From contig JAIELO010000439.1 in NCBI GenBank assembly GCA_019752915.1, forward strand, positions 1 to 12,692: a stretch of 12,692 nucleotides of DNA. Direction: 5' to 3'. The position numbers were made by a program, and so were the translations under genes. The first letter of the stretch is position 1. The number at the start of each line of letters is the position of its first letter. Below, piece by piece: positions 2,708 through 12,692 of this stretch. The DNA is from Burkholderiaceae bacterium. GTDB taxonomy: Bacteria; Pseudomonadota; Gammaproteobacteria; Burkholderiales; Burkholderiaceae_D. Below the pieces are notes generated by a model. It searched no databases, was not told where the DNA came from, and saw only the letters and a program-made list of their open reading frames with translations.

Positions 2708-2834
2708 AAATCCCCTCTATTATTTTGCTTTTTTGATCTAGCGCATGGAAACCGTGCTTTAGAGGGCGGCCTCCGATTTTCCTACGGTGTGCGGCACTAT
2801 GATGATTGCCTATTTCCATGAAAAGGGCAGTGTC

Positions 2835-4406
2835 ATGAGTCATTCCATCAAAGCATATCTGGTCGGCGGCGGTATCGGTAACCTCGCTGCGGCTGCATTC
2901 ATGATCCGCGACGCCGGCGTGGCGGGCAGTGATATCACGATTTTCGAAGCCTCACCTTTGTCGGGCGGCAGTCTCGATGGCGGCGGTAATCCCGATACCG
3001 GCTACACCCTGCGCGGTGGCCGCATGCTCACCACCGATAACTACGAGTGCACCTGGGATCTGTTCAAAAGCATCCCATCGCTGGAGCACGCAGGCCAGAG
3101 CGTGTATGACGAAACCATCGCCTTCAACGAGATGCACAAATCGCACTCGCAGGCGCGACTGGTTGATCGCAATCGCTTCCGCCTGAAAGTATCGTCGATG
3201 GGCTTCACGATGCACGAGCGCACCGAACTGCTGGCGCTGGCCGAAGCCGATGAGGAAAAGCTCGGCAACACGCCAATCACCGACTGGCTCTCGCCGGAAT
3301 TCTTCGAGACCAAATTCTGGCTGATGTGGGCCACCACCTTTGCCTTCCAGCCTTGGCACAGCGCCGTGGAGTTCAAGCGCTACCTGCATCGCTTCATGAT
3401 GGAGTTCTCGCGCATCGAAACGCTGGCAGGTGTGAAACGCACGGTGTACAACCAGTATGATTCCTTCGTACGTCCATTGCAGCACTGGTTGCAGGAGCAG
3501 GGCGTGCAGGTGGTACACAACTGCAAAGTGGATGACATCGAATTGATGGAGGAGGGCGGCAACACCATCGCCACCAGGCTGCGTTGCATTCGCGATGGCG
3601 TGGCGCAGGATATCGAGGTGCGCCCGCAGGATCTGGTGTTCTTCCAGAACGCTTCGATGACCGATGCATCGAGCTTCGGCAGCATGCACAGCGCACCGCC
3701 GAAAATCGATAAGCGCGATAGTCAGGGCTGGGCCTTGTGGGAAAAGCTGGCGCTTGATCGTCCGCAGTTCGGTAATCCGGCGGCCTTCAATTCCAGCATC
3801 CCCGAATCGTGGTGGGAGTCGTTCACCGTGACGCTGAAAGATCCGGCCTTCTTCGACAAGATGGAACAGTTCACCGGCAATGCCGATGGTACCGGTGGTC
3901 TGGTGACGTTCAAGGATTCCAACTGGCTGATGTCGGTGGTACTGGCGCATCAGCCACACTTTGCCGGACAGCCCGATGGCGTGCAAGTGTTCTGGGGTTA
4001 CGCCCTGCATCCGGACCGGGTAGGGAATTTTGTCGCCAAGCCGATGGCCGATTGCAGCGGCGAAGAAATCCTGCGTGAACTGTGCGGCCACCTGAACTTC
4101 GACATGGAGATCATGGCCAAGGCGAATTGCATCCCTTGCCGCATGCCTTACATTACCAGCATGTTCATGCCGCGCTTCAAGAGCGACCGTCCATTGCCGG
4201 TGCCGACCAATTCGCGCAATCTGGCCTTTGTCAGCCAGTTTGTCGAAGTGCCGGAAGACGTGGTATTCACGGTGGAGTATTCGGTACGCGCCGCGCAGAT
4301 GGCTGTGTATGAACTGCTGAACGTGCAGCGCAAGGTGCCGCCGGTGAGTCACTACGACAAATCGCTGAAGGTGAAACTCGAAACGCTGGTGAAAGCCTTC
4401 CGTTAA
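2835..4406 (+). CDS. ohyA: Oleate hydratase (fatty acid double-bond hydratase, MCRA family), short form
   Basis: FAD-dependent hydratase adding water to the cis-9 double bond of unsaturated fatty acids, giving 10-hydroxy acids from oleate or palmitoleate. From ATG 2835 it has 523 residues. This start has AAAAGGG (2821-2827) at suitable spacing and puts the FAD-binding GGGIGNLAAAA at residues 11-21; in-frame GTG 2787 and ATG 2799/2802 would add 11-16 unconvincing residues. Family marks are FEASPLSGGSLDGGG (37-51), RGGR (60-63), ECTWDLFKSIPSLE (71-84), NQYDSFVRPL (206-215, with the conserved catalytic Tyr208), MPYITSMFMPR (437-447) and EYSVRAAQMAVYELL (481-495). The position after RGGR, a catalytic Glu in the Elizabethkingia-type enzyme, is Met64 in a loop of different length. 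This resembles the short, monomeric Rhodococcus-type group. No signal peptide; probably cytosolic or membrane-peripheral. It stands alone between terminators. Likely role, inferred: detoxification of unsaturated fatty acids. Confidence 0.93.
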   Translation: MSHSIKAYLVGGGIGNLAAAAFMIRDAGVAGSDITIFEASPLSGGSLDGGGNPDTGYTLRGGRMLTTDNYECTWDLFKSIPSLEHAGQSVYDETIAFNEMHKSHSQARLVDRNRFRLKVSSMGFTMHERTELLALAEADEEKLGNTPITDWLSPEFFETKFWLMWATTFAFQPWHSAVEFKRYLHRFMMEFSRIETLAGVKRTVYNQYDSFVRPLQHWLQEQGVQVVHNCKVDDIELMEEGGNTIATRLRCIRDGVAQDIEVRPQDLVFFQNASMTDASSFGSMHSAPPKIDKRDSQGWALWEKLALDRPQFGNPAAFNSSIPESWWESFTVTLKDPAFFDKMEQFTGNADGTGGLVTFKDSNWLMSVVLAHQPHFAGQPDGVQVFWGYALHPDRVGNFVAKPMADCSGEEILRELCGHLNFDMEIMAKANCIPCRMPYITSMFMPRFKSDRPLPVPTNSRNLAFVSQFVEVPEDVVFTVEYSVRAAQMAVYELLNVQRKVPPVSHYDKSLKVKLETLVKAFR

Positions 4407-4479: not shown

Positions 4480-4947
4480 TTAGAGGAAACGGTCGAGAAT
4501 TTTCTTGCTGTGCTTATCCAGTTCGCGCAGGTCGCGCACCAGATAGTGGATGCCGTGGATGTCGGAGATCAGCAGGGTGTCGACGGTCAGGCGACGAATA
4601 TCTTCTTCGCCGCGCAGCACGAATTCGGTCGCGCCACGGTCGGTGCTGACCGCCCACGTGCATGGCGTGGCATAGCTGGTCACGCTGTGGATGCGGCTGA
4701 TCTCGGGCATGAATTCGCGCCCCGCCAGTTCTTCATTCACCAGCGCACTAGCTGCGGCGCTGAGGTCTTCCAGCCGGTCGATCCAGGCGACTTCCTTGCC
4801 GTCCAGATTGATCATGGCGATGCCGTCTTCCGGCGCCTGCACGGGGAAGGCACGCACCGGTGCAACGCCTTCGTGGACTTCGCCTTCGGCAGTGGTCAGT
4901 ATCAGCTTGCCGAAGGCGTTGCGGGTCAGTTCAAATGTGGTGGTCAT
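4480..4947 (-). CDS. DUF1854 family protein associated with cyanophycin metabolism
   Basis: A 155-residue soluble protein with no signal peptide or membrane segment. It matches the DUF1854 pattern: an N-terminal strand-rich part with VRAFPVQAPEDGIAMIN (31-47), then GKEVAWIDRLEDLS, NEELAGREFMPEISRI, a WAVSTDRGATEFVLRGEEDI block, and a C-terminal LLISDIHGIHYLVRDL plus LDKHSKKILDRFL. The biochemical function of this family is unknown. It starts 13 nt after the stop of the ABC transporter gene, so the two are co-transcribed, and the pair lies divergent from two cyanophycin synthetases. That arrangement is the basis for the name cyanophycin metabolism-associated DUF1854 protein (naming from memory). 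A role as cytosolic partner or regulator of the transporter is inference. No strong Shine-Dalgarno sequence precedes ATG 4947, so translational coupling to the upstream gene is plausible. Confidence 0.9.
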   Translation of the reverse strand: MTTTFELTRNAFGKLILTTAEGEVHEGVAPVRAFPVQAPEDGIAMINLDGKEVAWIDRLEDLSAAASALVNEELAGREFMPEISRIHSVTSYATPCTWAVSTDRGATEFVLRGEEDIRRLTVDTLLISDIHGIHYLVRDLRELDKHSKKILDRFL

Positions 4948-4960
4948 GGGTGTTCTCTAC

Positions 4961-7219
4961 TTATTCGTCTGCGAGGGTGGCGGCATTGCGGGCCTGCGCC
5001 TGATACAGGCGGAAGTAAGCGCCTTCTTGCGCCATCAGTGCGTCGTGGCCACCTTCTTCGACCACTTCGCCACGATCGAGTACCACCAGCCGGTCGGCTT
5101 TCTGCAGCGTCGACAGGCGGTGCGCAATCGCGATGGTGGTGCGACCCTGCACCAGATTTTCCAGCGCACGCTGGATCTCTTTCTCGGTTTCCGAGTCGAC
5201 CGAGGCGGTGGCTTCGTCGAGAATCAGAATCTTCGGATCGATCAGCAAAGCGCGCGCAATCGAGATACGCTGGCGCTCACCACCGGACAGACCCTGGCCG
5301 CGTTCACCCACCATCGAGTCGTAACCTTGCGGCAGACGCAGGATGAATTCGTGGGCGTGTGCGGCGCGCGCCGCAGCAATGATTTCGGCGCGGGTGGCAT
5401 TCGGCTTACCGTAGGCCAGATTTTCGGCGATGGTGCCGAAGAACAGGAACGGCTCCTGCAGCACCAGACCGATGTTGCGGCGGTAGTCGGAAATGGCAAA
5501 CGAGCGGATGTCCACGCCATCGAGCATGATGGCGCCTTCGGCCACGTCGTAGAAGCGGCAGATCAGATTGACCAGCGTCGATTTGCCAGAGCCCGAATGA
5601 CCCACCAGACCGATCATTTCACCGGCTTTGATCTCGAGGTTGATGCCGCGGTTGACCGCGCGGTTGCCATAGCGGAAGCCGACTTCACGCAGGCTGATAT
5701 TGCCTTCGATCTTATCCAGCTTGACCGGCTTGACCGGTTCCGGCACCGACGACACGTGATCGAGGATGTCGAAGATACGCTTGGCCGCGGACGCCGATTT
5801 CTGCGTGACGGAGACAATCCGGCTCATCGAATCGAGCCGGCCGTAGAAGCGGCTCGAGTACGAGATGAACAGGCTCAGAACACCGACCGTGATATGGCCT
5901 TTCGAGACCTGATAGATACCGAACACCCAGATCACCAGCAAGCCGATTTCGGTCAGGAAGGATACCGTCGGCGAGAACAGCGACCAGATTTTATTGAGCT
6001 TGTCGTTGACCGCCAGATTGTGTTTGTTGGCGGTGCGGAAGCGGTTCGCTTCGCGCTCTTCCTGCGCAAACGCTTTGACGACGCGGATGCCGGGAATGGT
6101 ATCGGCCAGCACGTTGGTCACTTCGCCCCACACCCGGTCGATTTTCTCGAAGCCGGTGCGCAGACGGTCACGCACGATGTGGATCATCCACGCGATGAAC
6201 GGCAGCGGCAGCAGCGTCACGGCGGCCATCCACGGATCGATGCTGAACAGGATGATGCCGGTCATGATGATCATCAGGCAGTCCGACGCGAAGTCCAGCA
6301 GGTGTAGCGACAGGAACACGCAGATGCGGTCACTCTCGCTACCGATACGCGACATCAGGTCACCGGTACGCTTGCCGCCGAAGTATTCCAGCGACAGCTT
6401 GAGCAAGTGTTCGTAGGTCGAGGTACGCAGGTCGGCGCCGATGCGCTCCGACACCAGTGCCAGCACATAGGTCTTGCCCCAGCCGAGCAGCCAGGCCAGG
6501 ATGGCCGAACCGAGCAGGCCGGACATGTACAGCACCACCAGATCGGTATCAACCGGCTGGCCGTTCTGGTACGGAATCAGCACATTGTCCATCAGTGGAC
6601 GGGTCAGATACGGCGGAATCATGTGCGCGCTGGTGCTGAGCAGCATCAGCGTAAAGCCCAGCGCCAGTTGCCAGCGGTACGGGCTGGCAAAGCGCCACAG
6701 CCGGAACAGCGTCCAGGTCGACGGCGGCGTGTACACCACCTTGGTGCAGATCGGGCATTCTTCCTGATCCGCTTCCAGTGGCGCCTTGCAGCTCGGGCAG
6801 ACATTGCTTTCTTCGCGCACCACCGGTACGCCCAGCGCATGGCTGTCGCGGTGTGCGGCGAACTGTTCGACCAGCCGGATCGCCTGCAGATTCTGGCCCA
6901 GCGTGAAGCGCCAGCTATCGAGCAGGGCCGAATCGCTGAGCAGTTCGAGGTGGCCGACACCGGCGTGATCGTGGTGCTGCAGTTGCAGGTGTTGGGTAAA
7001 TTGCCAATCTTGCCAGCTCGTGGCACCCGCTGCGCGGGCCAGAATGCGCCGCTCGGTGAGCACGATAATGCCCTTGGCGAAACGAAGTTGCGCATCCAAG
7101 TCAACCTCCAGGGCACTTACAACGTTTTCCCCTTTGGAAAGTTGTGCCTGTATCTCGGTACGCCAGCGTTCGGGCAACTCGCTAGGGCTGGAGACGGAGG
7201 AAAGTTGTTCAGTTGTCAT
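4961..7219 (-). CDS. Cyanophycin metabolism-associated ABC transporter (fused permease and ATPase half-transporter)
   Basis: A 752-residue exporter-type ABC half-transporter, expected to act as a dimer in the inner membrane. ATG 7219 is preferred over in-frame GTG 7270 because GGAG lies 11 nt upstream of it. Domains in order: residues 1-125, a soluble region with IIVLTERRILARA (51-63), reminiscent of bacterial PH-like folds; residues 141-158, a zinc ribbon with CPSC...CPIC (Cys141, 144, 155, 158); residues 180-460, a six-helix ABC membrane domain; residues 505-740, the ATPase with Walker A GHSGSGKST (540-548), Q-loop Gln588, signature LSGGE (644-648), Walker B ILILDE (664-669) and switch His700. 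All catalytic motifs are intact. The N-terminal 160 residues are additional to ordinary MsbA-like transporters of about 580 residues. It is co-operonic with the DUF1854 gene and divergent from cphA'. The cargo is unknown; cyanophycin, beta-Asp-Arg dipeptide, or arginine- or lipid-related compounds are guesses from context. Confidence 0.93.
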   Translation of the reverse strand: MTTEQLSSVSSPSELPERWRTEIQAQLSKGENVVSALEVDLDAQLRFAKGIIVLTERRILARAAGATSWQDWQFTQHLQLQHHDHAGVGHLELLSDSALLDSWRFTLGQNLQAIRLVEQFAAHRDSHALGVPVVREESNVCPSCKAPLEADQEECPICTKVVYTPPSTWTLFRLWRFASPYRWQLALGFTLMLLSTSAHMIPPYLTRPLMDNVLIPYQNGQPVDTDLVVLYMSGLLGSAILAWLLGWGKTYVLALVSERIGADLRTSTYEHLLKLSLEYFGGKRTGDLMSRIGSESDRICVFLSLHLLDFASDCLMIIMTGIILFSIDPWMAAVTLLPLPFIAWMIHIVRDRLRTGFEKIDRVWGEVTNVLADTIPGIRVVKAFAQEEREANRFRTANKHNLAVNDKLNKIWSLFSPTVSFLTEIGLLVIWVFGIYQVSKGHITVGVLSLFISYSSRFYGRLDSMSRIVSVTQKSASAAKRIFDILDHVSSVPEPVKPVKLDKIEGNISLREVGFRYGNRAVNRGINLEIKAGEMIGLVGHSGSGKSTLVNLICRFYDVAEGAIMLDGVDIRSFAISDYRRNIGLVLQEPFLFFGTIAENLAYGKPNATRAEIIAAARAAHAHEFILRLPQGYDSMVGERGQGLSGGERQRISIARALLIDPKILILDEATASVDSETEKEIQRALENLVQGRTTIAIAHRLSTLQKADRLVVLDRGEVVEEGGHDALMAQEGAYFRLYQAQARNAATLADE

Positions 7220-7533
7220 TGTGCAGCGTACTCCGGATGGGAAAAGGGCGGGTCTGTGCAAAATATTCACTTTGCCAGCCAGCAGTTGCGGCTGATATAA
7301 GTGCGTATTTACGGTATTCTGTCACTTGTCATACTTTTGACGGAAAACAAGAAAAGACCGGTGTTTTGTGTTGGCGCTGAGTATAACGCACAGACAGGAC
7401 GCCGGAATAGCTTGATGAACTTGATCGAAGCCACAGGTACCACCCAATGTAATTCGGCAACAAGCGGTAGTTCAAGGGTTAAAATACGGCGCGGGTAGGC
7501 CACGGCTGATAACAAAGACACAAGAATAGAAAC
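7220..7533. promoter_or_regulatory. Divergent intergenic control region of the cyanophycin locus (candidate elements only)
   Basis: This 314-bp gap is visibly richer in A/T than the flanking genes and holds no convincing gene. It must contain the promoters of both divergent operons. Candidates: on the + strand, TAAAAT (7480-7485), a possible -10 about 49 nt before cphA', but without a good -35; also TATAAC (7382-7387). On the - strand, TTATAT (7300-7295) with GTGACA (7325-7320) at a long 19-nt spacing. Repeats: TGTCA at 7320-7324 and 7327-7331, with TGAC in inverse orientation at 7338-7341; and a tandem CTTGATGAA / CTTGATCGAA at 7411-7419 and 7420-7429. None matches a regulator site that I can name with confidence. 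Confidence 0.35.
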
Positions 7534-9699
7534 ATGATCAAGAAGAAAGACATCGACATTCTCCGCGTGACGTATCTGCGCGGCCCGAATATCTGGACCT
7601 ATCGCCCGGTGGTGGAAGCCTGGCTCGATATCGGCGATCTGGAAAATTTCCCCTCGAATCTGCTACCCGGTCTGTATGAGCGCCTGACGGCGATCCTGCC
7701 GGGACTGATCGTGCACCGTTGCGGTGTGGGCGAACACGGCGGCTTCCTCGAGCGTCTGCGCGACGGCACCTACGCCGGTCACATTCTCGAGCACGTGGTA
7801 CTGGAGTTACAGAATCTGGCGGGTATGAAAACCGGCTTCGGTAAGACTCGCCAGATCGGCGAGGATACCGGCTTGTACAAAATGGCGTTCCGCACCCGTC
7901 AGGAACGCGTTGGTCGCGCCGCGCTGGCCGCTGGCCGCGATCTGCTGATGGCGATGATCGAAGACCGTCCTTACGATCTGGCGGCCACGGTGGAAAAGCT
8001 GACCGATATGGTCGAGCGCCTGTGTCTGGGCCCGAGCACCGGCAACATCGTCGATGCGGCCGGTGTGCGCAAAATTCCGTTCATCCGTCTGACCGATGGC
8101 AATCTGGTGCAACTGGGCCATGGTGCCCGTCAGCGCCGCATCTGGACCGCGGAAACCGAAGACACCAGCGCGATTGCCGAAGGCATCGCCAGTGACAAGG
8201 ATCTGACCAAGACGCTGCTCGCTTCCTGCGGCGTGCCGGTGCCGGAAGGCGAACTGGTGACCAGTCGCGAAGCGGCGTGGGAAGCTGCACAGGACATTGG
8301 TGCACCGGTGGCGGTGAAGCCGTACGACGGCAATCACGGTCGCGGCGTGTCGCTCAATCTGAATACGGAAAAAGACGTGATGGCCGCCTACGATGTGGCG
8401 GCGCTGCGCGGTGGTAGCAAGAACGTGATCGTTGAACGCTTCATCGCCGGCGACGAACACCGCCTGCTGGTGGTGGGCAAACGCATGGTGGCGGCGGCCG
8501 CCGGCGAATCGCTGTGGGTGACCGGCGATGGCAAATCCAACATCATCGAACTGTGCAACCTGCAGATCAATATCGATCCGCGCCGTGGCGAAACGGAAGA
8601 TGCGCCACTCGGTCTGGTGACGCCCGATAAGAGCGCCGAGATCCTGCTGGAACTCGAGCGTCAGAGCCTGACCGCGCAATCGGTGCCGGCTGCCGGCCAC
8701 AAAGTACTGATACAGCCGAATGGCAACGTGGCGGTCGACGTCACCGATAAAGTGCACCCGCAAGTGGCCGCAATGGCGGCGCTGGCAGCGCGCGTGGTCG
8801 GTCTGGATATCGCCGGCATCGATCTGGTGGCGTCCGACATCACCCGTCCACTGGACGAGCAGGGCGGCGCGATCATCGAAGTCAATGCCAGCCCGGGTTT
8901 GCTGGCGCACCTGAAACCGGCCAGCGGCGAAGCGCGCAACGTCGGCGAAGCCATCGTCGATCACCTGTTTGCACCGGAAGCGACCGGCCGTATGCCGATC
9001 GTCGGCATCACCGGCAAGCACGGCACCACCATGACCGCGCGTCTGGTGGCGTGGCTGCTGCAAATCGGCGGCAAGAAAACTGGCCTGAGCTGCAATGACG
9101 GTCTGTTCGTCAATGGCCGTCTGCTGCCACGCGACGGCCTGACCGACTGGGAAACCGGCGAACGTCTGCTGCTCAACAAGAGTGTCGAAGCGGCGGTGTT
9201 CGAGTCGAGCGCGCGCATGATCCTCAGCGAAGGTCTGGCCTACGACAAGTGCGAGGTCGGCATCGTTACCGACGTCAGCGATTTCGAAGATGTCAGCGAT
9301 TTCTATATCGATAGCGCCGATAAGCTGTACAACGTGCTGCGCACCCAGGTTGATGTAATTCTGCCGAGCGGTGCTGCGGTGCTGAACGCGGCCGACGAAC
9401 AGGTGGTCGAAATGGCCGAACTGTGCGACGGCGCAGTGATTTTCTATGGTCTGGACGAGCATCTGGCAGCGATTGCCGCGCATCGTCAGGATGGCTTGCG
9501 CGTGGTGTTCCAGCGTGGCGAGCGCATCGTGCTGGCCGAAGGGAGTAGCGAGGTGGCGACCCTGCCGCTGTCGCCACTGGTGCCGCCGGAAGCCGTGCTG
9601 GCAGCGATTGCTGCAGCATGGGCGCTGGGCCTGACGCCTGACCTGATCGGTGCTGGCCTGCGCACCTACGAGGCGAACCCGAAAAAAACCCATCACTGA
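7534..9699 (+). CDS. cphA': Short cyanophycin synthetase paralogue (CphA'/CphA2-like) with degenerate Mur-ligase region
   Basis: A 721-residue homologue of CphA. Domains: N domain (1-160) with LRGPNIW (15-21), GGFLERLRDGTY and HILEH (83-87); ATP-grasp region (about 215-480) with SAIAEGIASDKDLTK (212-226), VAVKPYDGNHGRGVS (259-273) and IIEVNASPGL (447-456); then a Mur-ligase-like domain (about 487-710). In the last, the P-loop reads GKHGTTM (494-500), so the Walker A Lys is Thr498, and the TNIGSGDHLG segment of active CphA is altered to TDVSDFEDVS. The protein ends at the equivalent of CphA residue 704 and lacks the Mur C-terminal domain. Two-ligase chemistry on free Asp and Arg is therefore unlikely. 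An ATP-grasp-only polymerase such as cyanobacterial CphA2 (beta-Asp-Arg units), or a helper of the next gene product, are alternatives. Only a weak AG-rich Shine-Dalgarno sequence precedes ATG 7534. cphA follows after 16 nt. Confidence 0.9.
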   Translation: MIKKKDIDILRVTYLRGPNIWTYRPVVEAWLDIGDLENFPSNLLPGLYERLTAILPGLIVHRCGVGEHGGFLERLRDGTYAGHILEHVVLELQNLAGMKTGFGKTRQIGEDTGLYKMAFRTRQERVGRAALAAGRDLLMAMIEDRPYDLAATVEKLTDMVERLCLGPSTGNIVDAAGVRKIPFIRLTDGNLVQLGHGARQRRIWTAETEDTSAIAEGIASDKDLTKTLLASCGVPVPEGELVTSREAAWEAAQDIGAPVAVKPYDGNHGRGVSLNLNTEKDVMAAYDVAALRGGSKNVIVERFIAGDEHRLLVVGKRMVAAAAGESLWVTGDGKSNIIELCNLQINIDPRRGETEDAPLGLVTPDKSAEILLELERQSLTAQSVPAAGHKVLIQPNGNVAVDVTDKVHPQVAAMAALAARVVGLDIAGIDLVASDITRPLDEQGGAIIEVNASPGLLAHLKPASGEARNVGEAIVDHLFAPEATGRMPIVGITGKHGTTMTARLVAWLLQIGGKKTGLSCNDGLFVNGRLLPRDGLTDWETGERLLLNKSVEAAVFESSARMILSEGLAYDKCEVGIVTDVSDFEDVSDFYIDSADKLYNVLRTQVDVILPSGAAVLNAADEQVVEMAELCDGAVIFYGLDEHLAAIAAHRQDGLRVVFQRGERIVLAEGSSEVATLPLSPLVPPEAVLAAIAAAWALGLTPDLIGAGLRTYEANPKKTHH

Positions 9700-9715
9700 G
9701 AGAACAAGCAGATTT

Positions 9716-12286
9716 ATGGAAGTTATCCGTACCCGCGCCCTTCGCGGCCCGAATCTCTGGAGCCACCACACCGCAGTGGAGGTAATTGTTTCGTGCACAC
9801 CCGAGGAGCGCTCGATCGCCGATTTGCCCGGCTTCGAACAGCGTTTGCATGCACGCTTCCCCGCCATTGGCGCGTTACAGGTAACCGGTCATTCCGGTGC
9901 TGTGCCGATGGCACGTGTGCTGGAAGTGGCGGCACTGAGCCTGCAGGCGCAGGCTGGCTGCCCGGTCACCTTCAGCCGTACCACGCCAACGCTGGAAGAA
10001 GGCATCTACCAGACCGTGGTGGAATACAGCGAAGAAGCGGTAGGGCGGCTGGCCATGAAACAGGCGGAAAGCCTGATCAATGCGGCATTGGCCGATACCC
10101 CGTTCGATCTGCCCGGCGCACTGGCCGAACTGGCCGAAGTCGATGAAGACGTGCGTCTGGGCCCAAGTACCGGTGCCATCGTCAGCGCCGCAGTAGCGCG
10201 CGACATTCCGTTCCGCCGCCTGACCGAAGGCAGCATGGTGATGTTTGGCTGGGGCTCGCGCCAGCGCCGCATTCAGGCGGCCGAAACCGACGCCACCAGC
10301 GCCATCGGCGAAGCGATCGCGCAGGATAAGGAACTGACCAAGAAGCTGCTGCATGCAGCAGGTGTGCCGGTGCCGATCGGCCGCTCCGTCTCCGACGCGG
10401 AAGACGCCTGGGCGGCAGCACAGGAAATCGGTCTGCCAGTCGTGGTAAAACCGAAGGACGGTAATCAGGGCAAGGGCGTAACGGTCAACGTGATGTCCAA
10501 AGAGCATCTGGAGCAGGCCTTCCATACGGCGCGCGAATTCCGCGACAACATCATGGTCGAGCGCTATCTGCCGGGCCACGATTTCCGTCTGCTGGTGATC
10601 GGTAACAAACTGGTGGCCGCCGCGCGCCGCGATCCACCGCAGGTGGTGGGCGATGGTGTACACACCGTGCGTGAGTTGGTGAACATCGTGAATGCCGACC
10701 CTCGTCGTGGCAGTGGTCACTCGACCTCGCTGACCAAGATCCGCTTCGACGATATCGCACTGGCGCGTCTGGCGCTGCAGGATCTGGAAGCTGATTCGGT
10801 GCCGAGCAAAGGCCAGCGCGTCATCCTGCGTAACAACGCCAATCTGTCCACCGGTGGCAGCGCAACCGACGTGACTGACGACGTGCATCCGGAAGTGGCG
10901 GCGCGTGCTGTGGAAGCGGCGCAGATGATCGGCCTCGATATCTGCGGCGTCGACGTGGTGTGCGAAAACGTTCTGCAACCGATCGAAAACCAGCGTGGCG
11001 GTGTAGTAGAAGTCAATGCCGCACCGGGCTTGCGCATGCACATTGCACCATCGTTCGGCAAAGGCCGCGCAGTGGGTGAAGCCATCGTCAACACCATGTT
11101 TGCGCCGGGCGACAATGGCCGTATTCCCGTGGTGGCAGTGACCGGTACCAACGGCAAGACCACCACCGTGCGTCTGATTGCCCACCTGCTGACCGCCAGC
11201 GGTCTGCGCACCGGCATGACCAATACCGACGGCGTGTACATCGAAGGGCGTCAGACCGACAGCGGCGATTGCAGCGGACCGCGCAGCGCCCGTAACGTGC
11301 TGCTGCATCCGGACGTCGATGCGGCCGTATTCGAAACGGCGCGTGGCGGTGTGCTGCGCGAAGGTCTGGCCTACGACCGTTGTCAGGTCGCCGTTGTGAC
11401 CAACATCGGTAGTGGCGATCACCTCGGCCTGAACTACATCACTACCGTGGAAGATCTGGCGGTACTGAAGCGCGTTATCGTTCAAAACGTCGGCGAGAGC
11501 GGTTACGCCGTGCTGAATGCGATTGATCCTATCGTCGCAGGCATGGCTGCCAACTGTCGTGGCAAAGTAATCTTCTTCGGTGCCGATCGCGGTCATCCGG
11601 TGATTGCCACCCATCTGGCACAGGGCAGCCGCACCGTGTACGTGGAAAACGGTCATATCGTCGCCGCCGAAGGTTCGCAGCAGCACCGCATCGACCTGAG
11701 CGAAGTACCAATCACCCGCAACGGCGTGATCGGCTTCCAGGTTGAAAACGTGATGGCCTCGGTAGCCGCAGCTTGGGGTGTCGGCATCAGCTGGGACGCC
11801 ATCCGCCTCGGCCTGCGCACCTTCGCCAACGACGCCGACAACGCGCCGGGTCGCTTCAACGTGTTCGATTACAAGGGCGCGACCCTGATCGCCGACTACG
11901 GCCACAATCCGGATGCGATTCTGGCGCTGGTACAGGCCGTAGAAACCATGCCGGCCAAGCGCCGCGGCGTGGTGATTTCCGGCGCCGGCGACCGCCGCGA
12001 TCAGGATATCCGTCAGCAGACGGAAATTCTTGGCCGTGCCTTCGACGACGTAATCCTGTACGAAGACCAGTGCCAGCGTGGCCGCACCGACGGTGAAGTC
12101 GTCGCACTGCTGCGTTCGGGTCTGAACAACGCCCCGCGTACTTCGCACATTCAGGAAATCTACGGCGAATTCCTCGCCATTGACACCGCGCTGGCCCGCC
12201 TTCAGCCCGGTGACCTGTGCCTGATTCTGGTCGATCAGGTAGAAGACGCACTGGCGCACATCGCCAAGCGTATCAAGGAAGCGTAA
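9716..12286 (+). CDS. cphA: Cyanophycin synthetase (full length)
   Basis: ATP-dependent polymerase making multi-L-arginyl-poly-L-aspartate, the cytosolic nitrogen storage granule, by alternate addition of Asp to the backbone and Arg to its side chain. 856 residues from ATG 9716. An in-frame ATG at 9650 inside cphA' would add 22 residues that do not resemble the family, whereas MEVIRTRALRGPNLW matches the N-terminus. Domains: N domain (1-160); ATP-grasp domain adding Asp (about 200-465) with VVVKPKDGNQGKGV (242-255), AARRDPPQVVGDG (302-314), RGSGHS (331-336) and VVEVNAAPGL (430-439); Mur-ligase-like domain adding Arg (about 470-856) with P-loop VTGTNGKTTT (475-484), ETARGG (540-545), TNIGSGDHLG (562-571) and ADYGHNPDA (726-734). 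Both ATP sites look intact. In the N domain both His of the HxxEH motif of some synthetases are replaced (Arg67, Val71). The upstream Shine-Dalgarno sequence is weak, so coupling to cphA' is likely. Confidence 0.97.
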   Translation: MEVIRTRALRGPNLWSHHTAVEVIVSCTPEERSIADLPGFEQRLHARFPAIGALQVTGHSGAVPMARVLEVAALSLQAQAGCPVTFSRTTPTLEEGIYQTVVEYSEEAVGRLAMKQAESLINAALADTPFDLPGALAELAEVDEDVRLGPSTGAIVSAAVARDIPFRRLTEGSMVMFGWGSRQRRIQAAETDATSAIGEAIAQDKELTKKLLHAAGVPVPIGRSVSDAEDAWAAAQEIGLPVVVKPKDGNQGKGVTVNVMSKEHLEQAFHTAREFRDNIMVERYLPGHDFRLLVIGNKLVAAARRDPPQVVGDGVHTVRELVNIVNADPRRGSGHSTSLTKIRFDDIALARLALQDLEADSVPSKGQRVILRNNANLSTGGSATDVTDDVHPEVAARAVEAAQMIGLDICGVDVVCENVLQPIENQRGGVVEVNAAPGLRMHIAPSFGKGRAVGEAIVNTMFAPGDNGRIPVVAVTGTNGKTTTVRLIAHLLTASGLRTGMTNTDGVYIEGRQTDSGDCSGPRSARNVLLHPDVDAAVFETARGGVLREGLAYDRCQVAVVTNIGSGDHLGLNYITTVEDLAVLKRVIVQNVGESGYAVLNAIDPIVAGMAANCRGKVIFFGADRGHPVIATHLAQGSRTVYVENGHIVAAEGSQQHRIDLSEVPITRNGVIGFQVENVMASVAAAWGVGISWDAIRLGLRTFANDADNAPGRFNVFDYKGATLIADYGHNPDAILALVQAVETMPAKRRGVVISGAGDRRDQDIRQQTEILGRAFDDVILYEDQCQRGRTDGEVVALLRSGLNNAPRTSHIQEIYGEFLAIDTALARLQPGDLCLILVDQVEDALAHIAKRIKEA

Positions 12287-12481: not shown

Positions 12482-12692
12482 TTAAGCGCGGCGACGGCGT
12501 GCAACGGCGCCCAGCATGGCCAGACCGCCCAGCAGCATGGCATAGGTTTCTGGCTCAGGCACCGGTGCCAGCGTATCGGCAGTGAAGGTCTGGTAGCCTT
12601 CGCCAGCTTTGGCAAATTGCACCTGCTGGCCGCCATCGCAGCAGCCTTCCAGACCATAGATGGTCAGGGTGTGGTTGCCGGCCGACAGGGCA
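12482..12692 (-). CDS. PEP-CTERM sorting domain protein, C-terminal end
   Basis: Partial gene: the last 70 codons and the stop are present and the rest lies beyond the right edge. The C-terminus reads PVPEPETYAMLLGGLAMLGA followed by VARRRRA. This is the complete tripartite PEP-CTERM signal: a VPEPxxYAM motif, a short hydrophobic helix and a basic tail, recognised by an EpsH-type exosortase. The mature protein would be exported and processed at the cell surface or into the exopolysaccharide matrix. The visible upstream part (SAGNHTLTIYGLEGCCDGGQ) is strand-rich and contains CCDG, which fits a CCxG signature that I recall as a named PEP-CTERM subfamily (from memory, not checked). It is convergent to cphA and shows no functional link to cyanophycin. 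Confidence 0.9.
   Translation of the reverse strand, partial: ALSAGNHTLTIYGLEGCCDGGQQVQFAKAGEGYQTFTADTLAPVPEPETYAMLLGGLAMLGAVARRRRA

Follow-up and report, generated by a model that had tools for sequence, protein, structure and literature searches.

The stretch of DNA analysed here, called the window below, comprises the 12,692 nucleotides of contig JAIELO010000439.1 of a Burkholderiaceae bacterium, and carries on its forward strand two adjacent genes of the cyanophycin synthetase (CphA) type. The first, designated CphA' (7534..9699, 721 residues), encodes an N domain with an intact endo-cyanophycinase site, an altered ATP-grasp G domain and a Mur-ligase-like core (M domain) without the C-terminal lid. 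The second (9716..12286, 856 residues counted from the ATG at 9716) is the full-length partner CphA, in which the M residues are intact, the G residues are intact except for E215A and H267Q, and the N site is lost. In the open reading frames (ORFs) of the window the start of CphA lies 16 bases past the stop of CphA'.

The N site has been described in SuCphA1 (PDB 7TXV), where the motif Cx19HxxEH (C59, H79, E82 and H83) forms a metallopeptidase-like site at which cyanophycin is cut to give primers (PMC9262961, in excerpt, as are the other PMC articles cited here). The activity is slow and of the endo type, its main products are 4-mers, and 83% of CphA1s carry the motif when counted at 70% non-redundancy. 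In TmCphA1, which depends on a primer, all four motif residues are missing; it was turned primer-independent in trans by the isolated SuCphA1 N domain or by SuCphA1 with dead G and M sites (PMC9262961). In CphA' of the window the whole motif is found (C63, H83, E86, H87; 7720..7794, forward strand), together with H61, F71 and R74 (H57, F67 and R70 in SuCphA1) and with the counterparts of E87 and Y110. The segment HILEHVVLELQ, from residue 83 onward (H83, E86, H87, E91; 7780..7812, forward strand), forms the active-site helix and falls on helix 81-95 of the structural model, so that both the residues, second shell included, and the predicted fold are those of a CphA1-type N-domain endo-cyanophycinase. 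The difference from SuCphA1 is that the protein carrying the site has altered or lost ligase sites and putatively serves a separate polymerase. The counterpart in CphA, RVLEVAALSLQ (residue 67 onward in the ATG 9716 numbering; 9914..9946, forward strand), is degenerate, and of the Cx19HxxEH residues only the catalytic Glu remains (RVLEV). The identities to SuCphA1 are mirrored: in the N domain 44% for CphA' versus 29% for CphA, in the M core 29% versus 44%. An earlier note on this DNA had pointed to the two segments, with coordinates that proved exact, and had suggested that HILEH might belong to the published primer-making site, which the match to the SuCphA1 motif bears out; the full Cx19HxxEH of CphA' had been overlooked there and the catalytic Glu retained in CphA was not stressed.

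Conservation of the pattern was followed in 53 loci from named genomes and in CphA regions from an order sample (300 genomes) and a class sample (274 genomes). Two sets of 132 were used. The pattern count took adjacent same-strand CphA pairs with N domains, with adjacency as the sole criterion; the alignment comprised 32 named-genome loci, 99 loci from other genomes and the window. The sets differ by one locus each, as the former includes L221 (partial partner) and the latter L183 (overlapping ORF calls). Twelve loci at contig ends or in pieces were set apart (L126, L163, L176, L186, L027, L218, L219, L220, L226, L233, L234 and L236), and those of them which show a CphA' with its N domain (L027, L218, L219, L220, L236) all bear the motif. 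Also excluded were L188-L190 (extra opposite-strand CphA pairs) and L052, L210 and L227 (CphA-like, without a recognisable N site), L053-L057 are not CphA, and L187 was retained despite a CphA broken into two frames. Pair genomes in the order sample number 104, of which 98 (97 loci and the window) are seen as linked pairs in the alignment; the other six (G005, G030, G051, G172, G174, G287) show contig-end cuts or a partial gene, G287 with CphA alone and G030 with CphA' alone, and G136 was omitted as CphA-like without an N site.

In the adjacent pairs Cx19HxxEH is present in the upstream member in 132 of 132 cases and in the downstream member in none. In the alignment, each of the eight site residues (H57, C59, F67, R70, H79, E82, H83 and E87 in SuCphA1 numbering) is found in all 132 CphA', and the polymer-contacting Y110 is likewise invariant there. 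Among the partners H57, C59, F67 and R70 are retained in none, H83 in 4, E87 in 10, H79 in 97 and E82 in 102. The complementarity in related paired loci, on which the earlier note had staked its proposal, was thus conserved across the pairs sampled; its simpler wording, HxxEH kept in the short protein and lost in the long one, holds for 129 of the 132 pairs and fails in three partners which still read HxxEH. Identity to the window CphA' over the N and G domains falls as low as 44% among the CphA' compared. In 78 CphA' representatives sharing less than 80% identity, 24 of 160 N-domain columns are invariant and include all eight site residues and Y110, and chance as the source of this conservation was rejected (hypergeometric p of about 8e-8 for the eight residues, phylogeny being ignored). 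Mean conservation of the N domain is 0.725 in CphA' versus 0.637 in CphA, whereas that of the M core is 0.569 versus 0.758. A decaying pseudogene, also considered for CphA', was rejected because of the N-site invariance. Even in the CphA' of L183, L200 and L201, where the ATP/Mg set of the G site is broken, all eight N-site residues are still there. The CphA' of L200 (genome G390; 674 residues) lacks the G-domain stretch at about 321-394 (query residues) and has changed ATP/Mg residues with an intact N site; judged by its residues, it would be close to a natural N-site-only form.

Two further groups of CphA were seen in the samples. Thirty CphAs stand alone in their stretch and were picked for the N site, R323 and the M lid; their other M residues are also present (T522 being Ser in one), and 12 of the 30 have a Cys-His spacing of 21 instead of 19. 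In three genomes of the same family (G298, G269 and G056) there are, besides the CphA'/CphA pair, two opposite-strand CphA genes (loci L188, L189 and L190) next to a cyanophycinase, and neither copy of this second set has Cx19HxxEH.

The remaining domains of CphA' have diverged in different ways. In the G domain of cyanophycin synthetase the incoming Asp is bound by R323, N394 and R458, the ATP phosphates by K220 and K261 and Mg by D431 and E450, and the chain end is handled by R309 and H267 (PMC9427784); the residues tabulated here follow that source except N452, which is the author's own choice. The window CphA' has G324 (8503..8505, forward strand) in place of R323 and L457 (8902..8904, forward strand) in place of R458. 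Throughout the alignment R458 is lost in 132 of 132 CphA' and kept in 132 of 132 partners, and the same figures hold for R323, where they are partly built in since CphA' was recognised partly by a non-Arg residue at this position. Four or five columns of the LSTGG loop are empty in all 132 CphA'; position 394 abuts this gap and is ambiguous in them. On the other hand K220, K261, R309, D431, E450 and N452 occur all together in 129 of 132 CphA', and H267 is kept in 124. In the M domain T498 of the window CphA' (9025..9027, forward strand) replaces the P-loop Lys K499 in the alignment; this Lys is kept in 36 of 132 CphA', and K499, D585 and H586 together in 10. The M lid is full in 8 of the 132 and about half present in 2; five or more lid changes are needed on a tree of 82 CphA'. 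Two M-domain positions, 603 and 607, contribute polymer contacts to the N site of SuCphA1 (PMC9262961): at 607 all 132 CphA' have Asp, against Gln or Glu in 122 of the 132 partners, and 603 is Arg in 132 of 132 CphA' and likewise in 119 partners. It can be said that the loss of Asp binding is universal in the set, the decay of the M domain is partial and repeated, the ATP centre of the G domain is nearly always retained, and the N site alone is never lost. The window CphA' reaches 681.7 bits against the CphA1 equivalog TIGR02068 (NCBIfam), under the cut-off of 850, and 978.6 bits against the broader PRK14016 subfamily, over the cut-off of 877. The two intact ligase sites that define CphA1 are missing from it (R323G, R458L, loop deletion, K499T, no M lid).

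Given a mostly decayed M site, a mostly lost lid and close co-occurrence with CphA, it might be supposed that CphA' is a catalytically silent partner, a pseudo-enzyme which stabilises or regulates CphA and in which the HxxEH metal is purely structural. This is very unlikely, as it is not the metal ligands alone but also the catalytic Glu, the substrate-binding R70 and Y110 that are invariant in 132 of 132 CphA'. Hardly more credence, and if anything slightly less, is given to CphA' as a CphA2-type enzyme whose G domain re-polymerises beta-Asp-Arg dipeptides after loss of the M function. CphA2 of cyanobacteria (PDB 7TA5, 8FXH/8FXI) has lost the M P-loop and the lid, and so has the window CphA', which lacks the P-loop Lys and the M lid; the G-domain ATP/Mg residues are kept, and adjacent copies were named CphA1 and CphA2 in one paper (PMC5178258). 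However, the N site is absent from CphA2 (PMC9262961) and present in CphA', and the CphA2 of Stanieria keeps R323 and the NLSSGG loop, unlike CphA'. On residues and folds an ordinary CphA2 was set aside. None of the 120 matches listed of 2722, in a collection limited by query length, is named CphA2; the named ones are cyanophycin synthetases, Mur ligase or ATP-grasp proteins, many marked partial.

It is on balance probable that CphA' is a dedicated hydrolase making primers in trans for CphA, that is, that one synthetase has been split in two by duplication. CphA would be the polymerase, its G domain adding Asp and its M domain adding Arg, with an N domain that serves as a binding platform only, and by analogy with TmCphA1 it would be primer-dependent. 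The N domain of CphA' would bind zinc through C63, H83 and H87 with E86 as the general base, and would cut cyanophycin to short (beta-Asp-Arg)n pieces, which would then prime CphA in trans; the two genes may be co-transcribed and CphA' is perhaps bound to CphA. Such a division of labour, in which CphA' cuts and CphA builds, is the most economical mechanism for the observed allocation of sites. TmCphA1 (PDB 7LGN) resembles the long CphA in having G and M domains without the N site, and is itself an active polymerase; it differs in that the excerpts of PMC9262961 mention no hydrolase paralogue next to it. Two protomers sharing out the active sites in this way were engineered as the active N-G+M+/N+G-M- heterodimer of SuCphA1 (Sharon et al. 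2022, PMC9262961), although that heterodimer is man-made, in contrast to two natural genes whose CphA' is also without the M lid and for whose products contact is putative. In favour of a joint role, Accumulibacter expresses evenly its two neighbouring cphA copies, which may be of this pair type (PMC10687191).

The window CphA scores 986.4 bits against TIGR02068, over the cut-off of 850, and all tabulated G and M residues are kept except E215 (Ala) and H267 (Gln). The earlier idea of a locus that splits the work stands as regards the complementarity of the sites, and needs correction where the long protein was credited with both ligase sites. Several observations weigh against the proposed division of labour. 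Position 267, the G-domain P-loop His of SuCphA1, which is important in cyanobacterial CphA1, is Gln in 129 of 132 partners, and H267A inactivates the G domain of SuCphA1; A. baylyi CphA (7LGM) has His here. Gln at 267 also occurs in the tabulated planctomycete CphAs which have all other sites, and no assayed example is known from the sources consulted. The partners of L167, L169 and L177 have HxxEH without the Cys, R70 or E87, and are possibly intermediates of site loss. A pure hydrolase needs none of the G-domain ATP and Mg residues which CphA' retains after losing the Asp-binding ones, and the splitting idea leaves this retention unexplained. Because the set is kept in 129 of 132, CphA' is more than a hydrolase attached to a dead ligase, and the earlier description of it as the primer-making hydrolase fits the intact N site without covering the G domain; from its residues, the retained ATP centre points to a further activity beyond cutting. 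When no primer was given in vitro, the all-in-one protomer did somewhat better than the split heterodimer (PMC9262961). According to a review, no cyanophycin is seen in wild-type R. eutropha, which has two homologues (PMC11362209). Finally, most pair genomes are without the cyanophycinase CphB, which would equally suit a depolymerase role.

In that role CphA' would be the intracellular cyanophycinase that betaproteobacteria seem to lack, with an N domain that acts as a depolymerase in place of CphB and not mainly as a primer maker. A strong CphB (TIGR02069 above 200 bits) was found in 17 of 17 single-CphA genomes (9/9 in the order sample, 8/8 in the class sample) versus 3 of 106 pair genomes (3/104, all three beside extra CphA genes, and 0/2), and a recognisable cyanophycinase is reported in only 3% of cphA1-carrying beta-proteobacterial genomes (PMC10206079). 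The genomes are related, so these are far fewer than 100 independent cases, and with a looser family cut-off a cyanophycinase match is found in 8 of the 104 pair genomes, the window genome included. There (G000:C82, L211) two tandem S51 cyanophycinase-like proteins with weaker matches have signal-like N termini and stand, as judged by eye, adjacent to a TonB-receptor-like ORF; this suggests that they may scavenge external cyanophycin. In the class sample, genome G527 lacks a cyanophycinase, and the CphA-like protein that it encodes shows no recognisable N site. The slow endo-type cutting of the N domain, mainly to 4-mers (PMC9262961), would still require an exo step, and making a cutter together with the polymerase would serve no purpose unless there were regulation. 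The depolymerase role is regarded as unlikely, while retaining a real share of the weight. Depolymerase and primer maker would use the same chemistry, and both could be true together.

Divergently from CphA' lie two further genes. One (4961..7270, reverse strand) encodes an exporter-type ATP-binding cassette (ABC) transporter of the NCBIfam family CphA_assoc_ABC (NF052233; 1410.9 bits, cut-off 880), and the other (4480..4947, reverse strand) a DUF1854 protein matching the NCBIfam family CphA_assoc_prot (NF052234). In the 4480-7270 region the transporter has an N-terminal extension with a CPSC...CPIC stretch, zinc-ribbon-like by eye. In the order sample the ABC gene is found in 102 of 104 pair genomes versus 0 of 196 others, and DUF1854 in 102 of 300 genomes, exactly the 102 with the ABC gene, and in none of the 196 non-pair ones. 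The two pair genomes without a full ABC match are G122, whose ABC gene is partial where the contig ends, and G287, which is 82% complete. Among the class genomes tried, both pair genomes have the ABC over the cut-off and none of the 8 single-CphA genomes does; in some genomes (e.g. G183, G146, G205) it is far from the pair. Planctomycetes weakened the idea that the ABC gene is tied to the split itself: it is over the cut-off in 6 of the 9 genomes tried (of 11 such loci fetched) with one three-site CphA, single as judged from the stretch and not from a search for a second CphA elsewhere in the genome. The gene therefore appears to be a feature of this CphA lineage and not of the split. Since cyanophycinase-family matches over the cut-off (about 150-161 bits) occur in 9 of these 9 genomes, the lack of such proteins seems to go with the split and not with the ABC gene.

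These neighbours enter a further reading, in which CphA' is two-headed: its N domain cuts the chain, its G domain joins a different nucleophile to the chain end, and the locus with its ABC and DUF1854 proteins makes short cyanophycin-like chains, possibly end-capped, that are exported or put to some use other than storage. It is prompted by the G domain, in which K220, K261, R309, D431, E450 and N452 are kept and both Asp-carboxylate-binding arginines replaced, and it fits the lack of CphB and the absence of cyanophycin reported for wild-type R. eutropha (PMC11362209). Such a role is considered improbable.

As to the origin of the pair, a G-domain tree of 85 rows was made by a quick method, with N-site columns unused. 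All 30 sampled CphA' fall in one clade (SH-aLRT, the approximate likelihood ratio branch support, 99) and all 30 partners sampled make up a clade of their own (100), next to which three planctomycete CphAs with all sites are placed (88). On this sampled tree there is one old duplication, strictly kept, and the pairs represent its retention and not 132 independent events. Most simply, the site would be ancestral, lost once in the partner lineage and held in CphA'. The planctomycete loci L047 and L048 have a single three-site CphA beside the same ABC gene, in L047 also beside DUF1854, an arrangement as expected of the unsplit state.

The other genes of the window comprise a major facilitator superfamily (MFS) transporter (1373-2656) and an MCRA-family protein (2787-4406), upstream and apparently unrelated to cyanophycin, and the C-terminal end of a protein at 12482-12691 on the reverse strand, with a tail (VPEPETYAMLLGGLAMLGAVARRRRA) which we take to be PEP-CTERM-like. 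The window genome is 60.7% complete, hence missing genes there carry little meaning.

Adjacent cphA pairs outside cyanobacteria are already in print (PMC5178258, PMC10687191), as are two homologues in R. eutropha (PMC11362209, citing a 2013 study of strain H16) and the longer and shorter cphA copies of actinobacterial Tetrasphaera loci (PMC10687191). The Group 1 cphA cluster of activated-sludge bacteria, with two cphA, an ABC transporter and no cphB, is apparently the same locus type; the N site and a division of labour are not discussed in section 3.3 and the passages used of that article (PMC10687191). A text search of the open-licence PMC literature returned no paper with the word DUF1854, and no statement of an N site divided between two cphA copies was found there, subscription papers and preprints being outside the search, so that no priority is claimed. 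The two-gene cluster is thus already known, and the divided site was not found reported in the open-licence literature.

According to a proposal by Sharon et al., CphA1s that lack the N site are primed by leftover strands or by other molecules (PMC9262961). In the pairs examined here the missing site is encoded next door, and such CphAs may be primer-independent as a pair. Since 903 beta-proteobacterial genomes with CphA1 have been counted, of 1614 such genomes in all (PMC10206079), the split form may be common. The role of the second cphA and the handling of the polymer in bacteria without a recognisable cyanophycinase become testable, and co-expression of both genes is suggested for polymer production.
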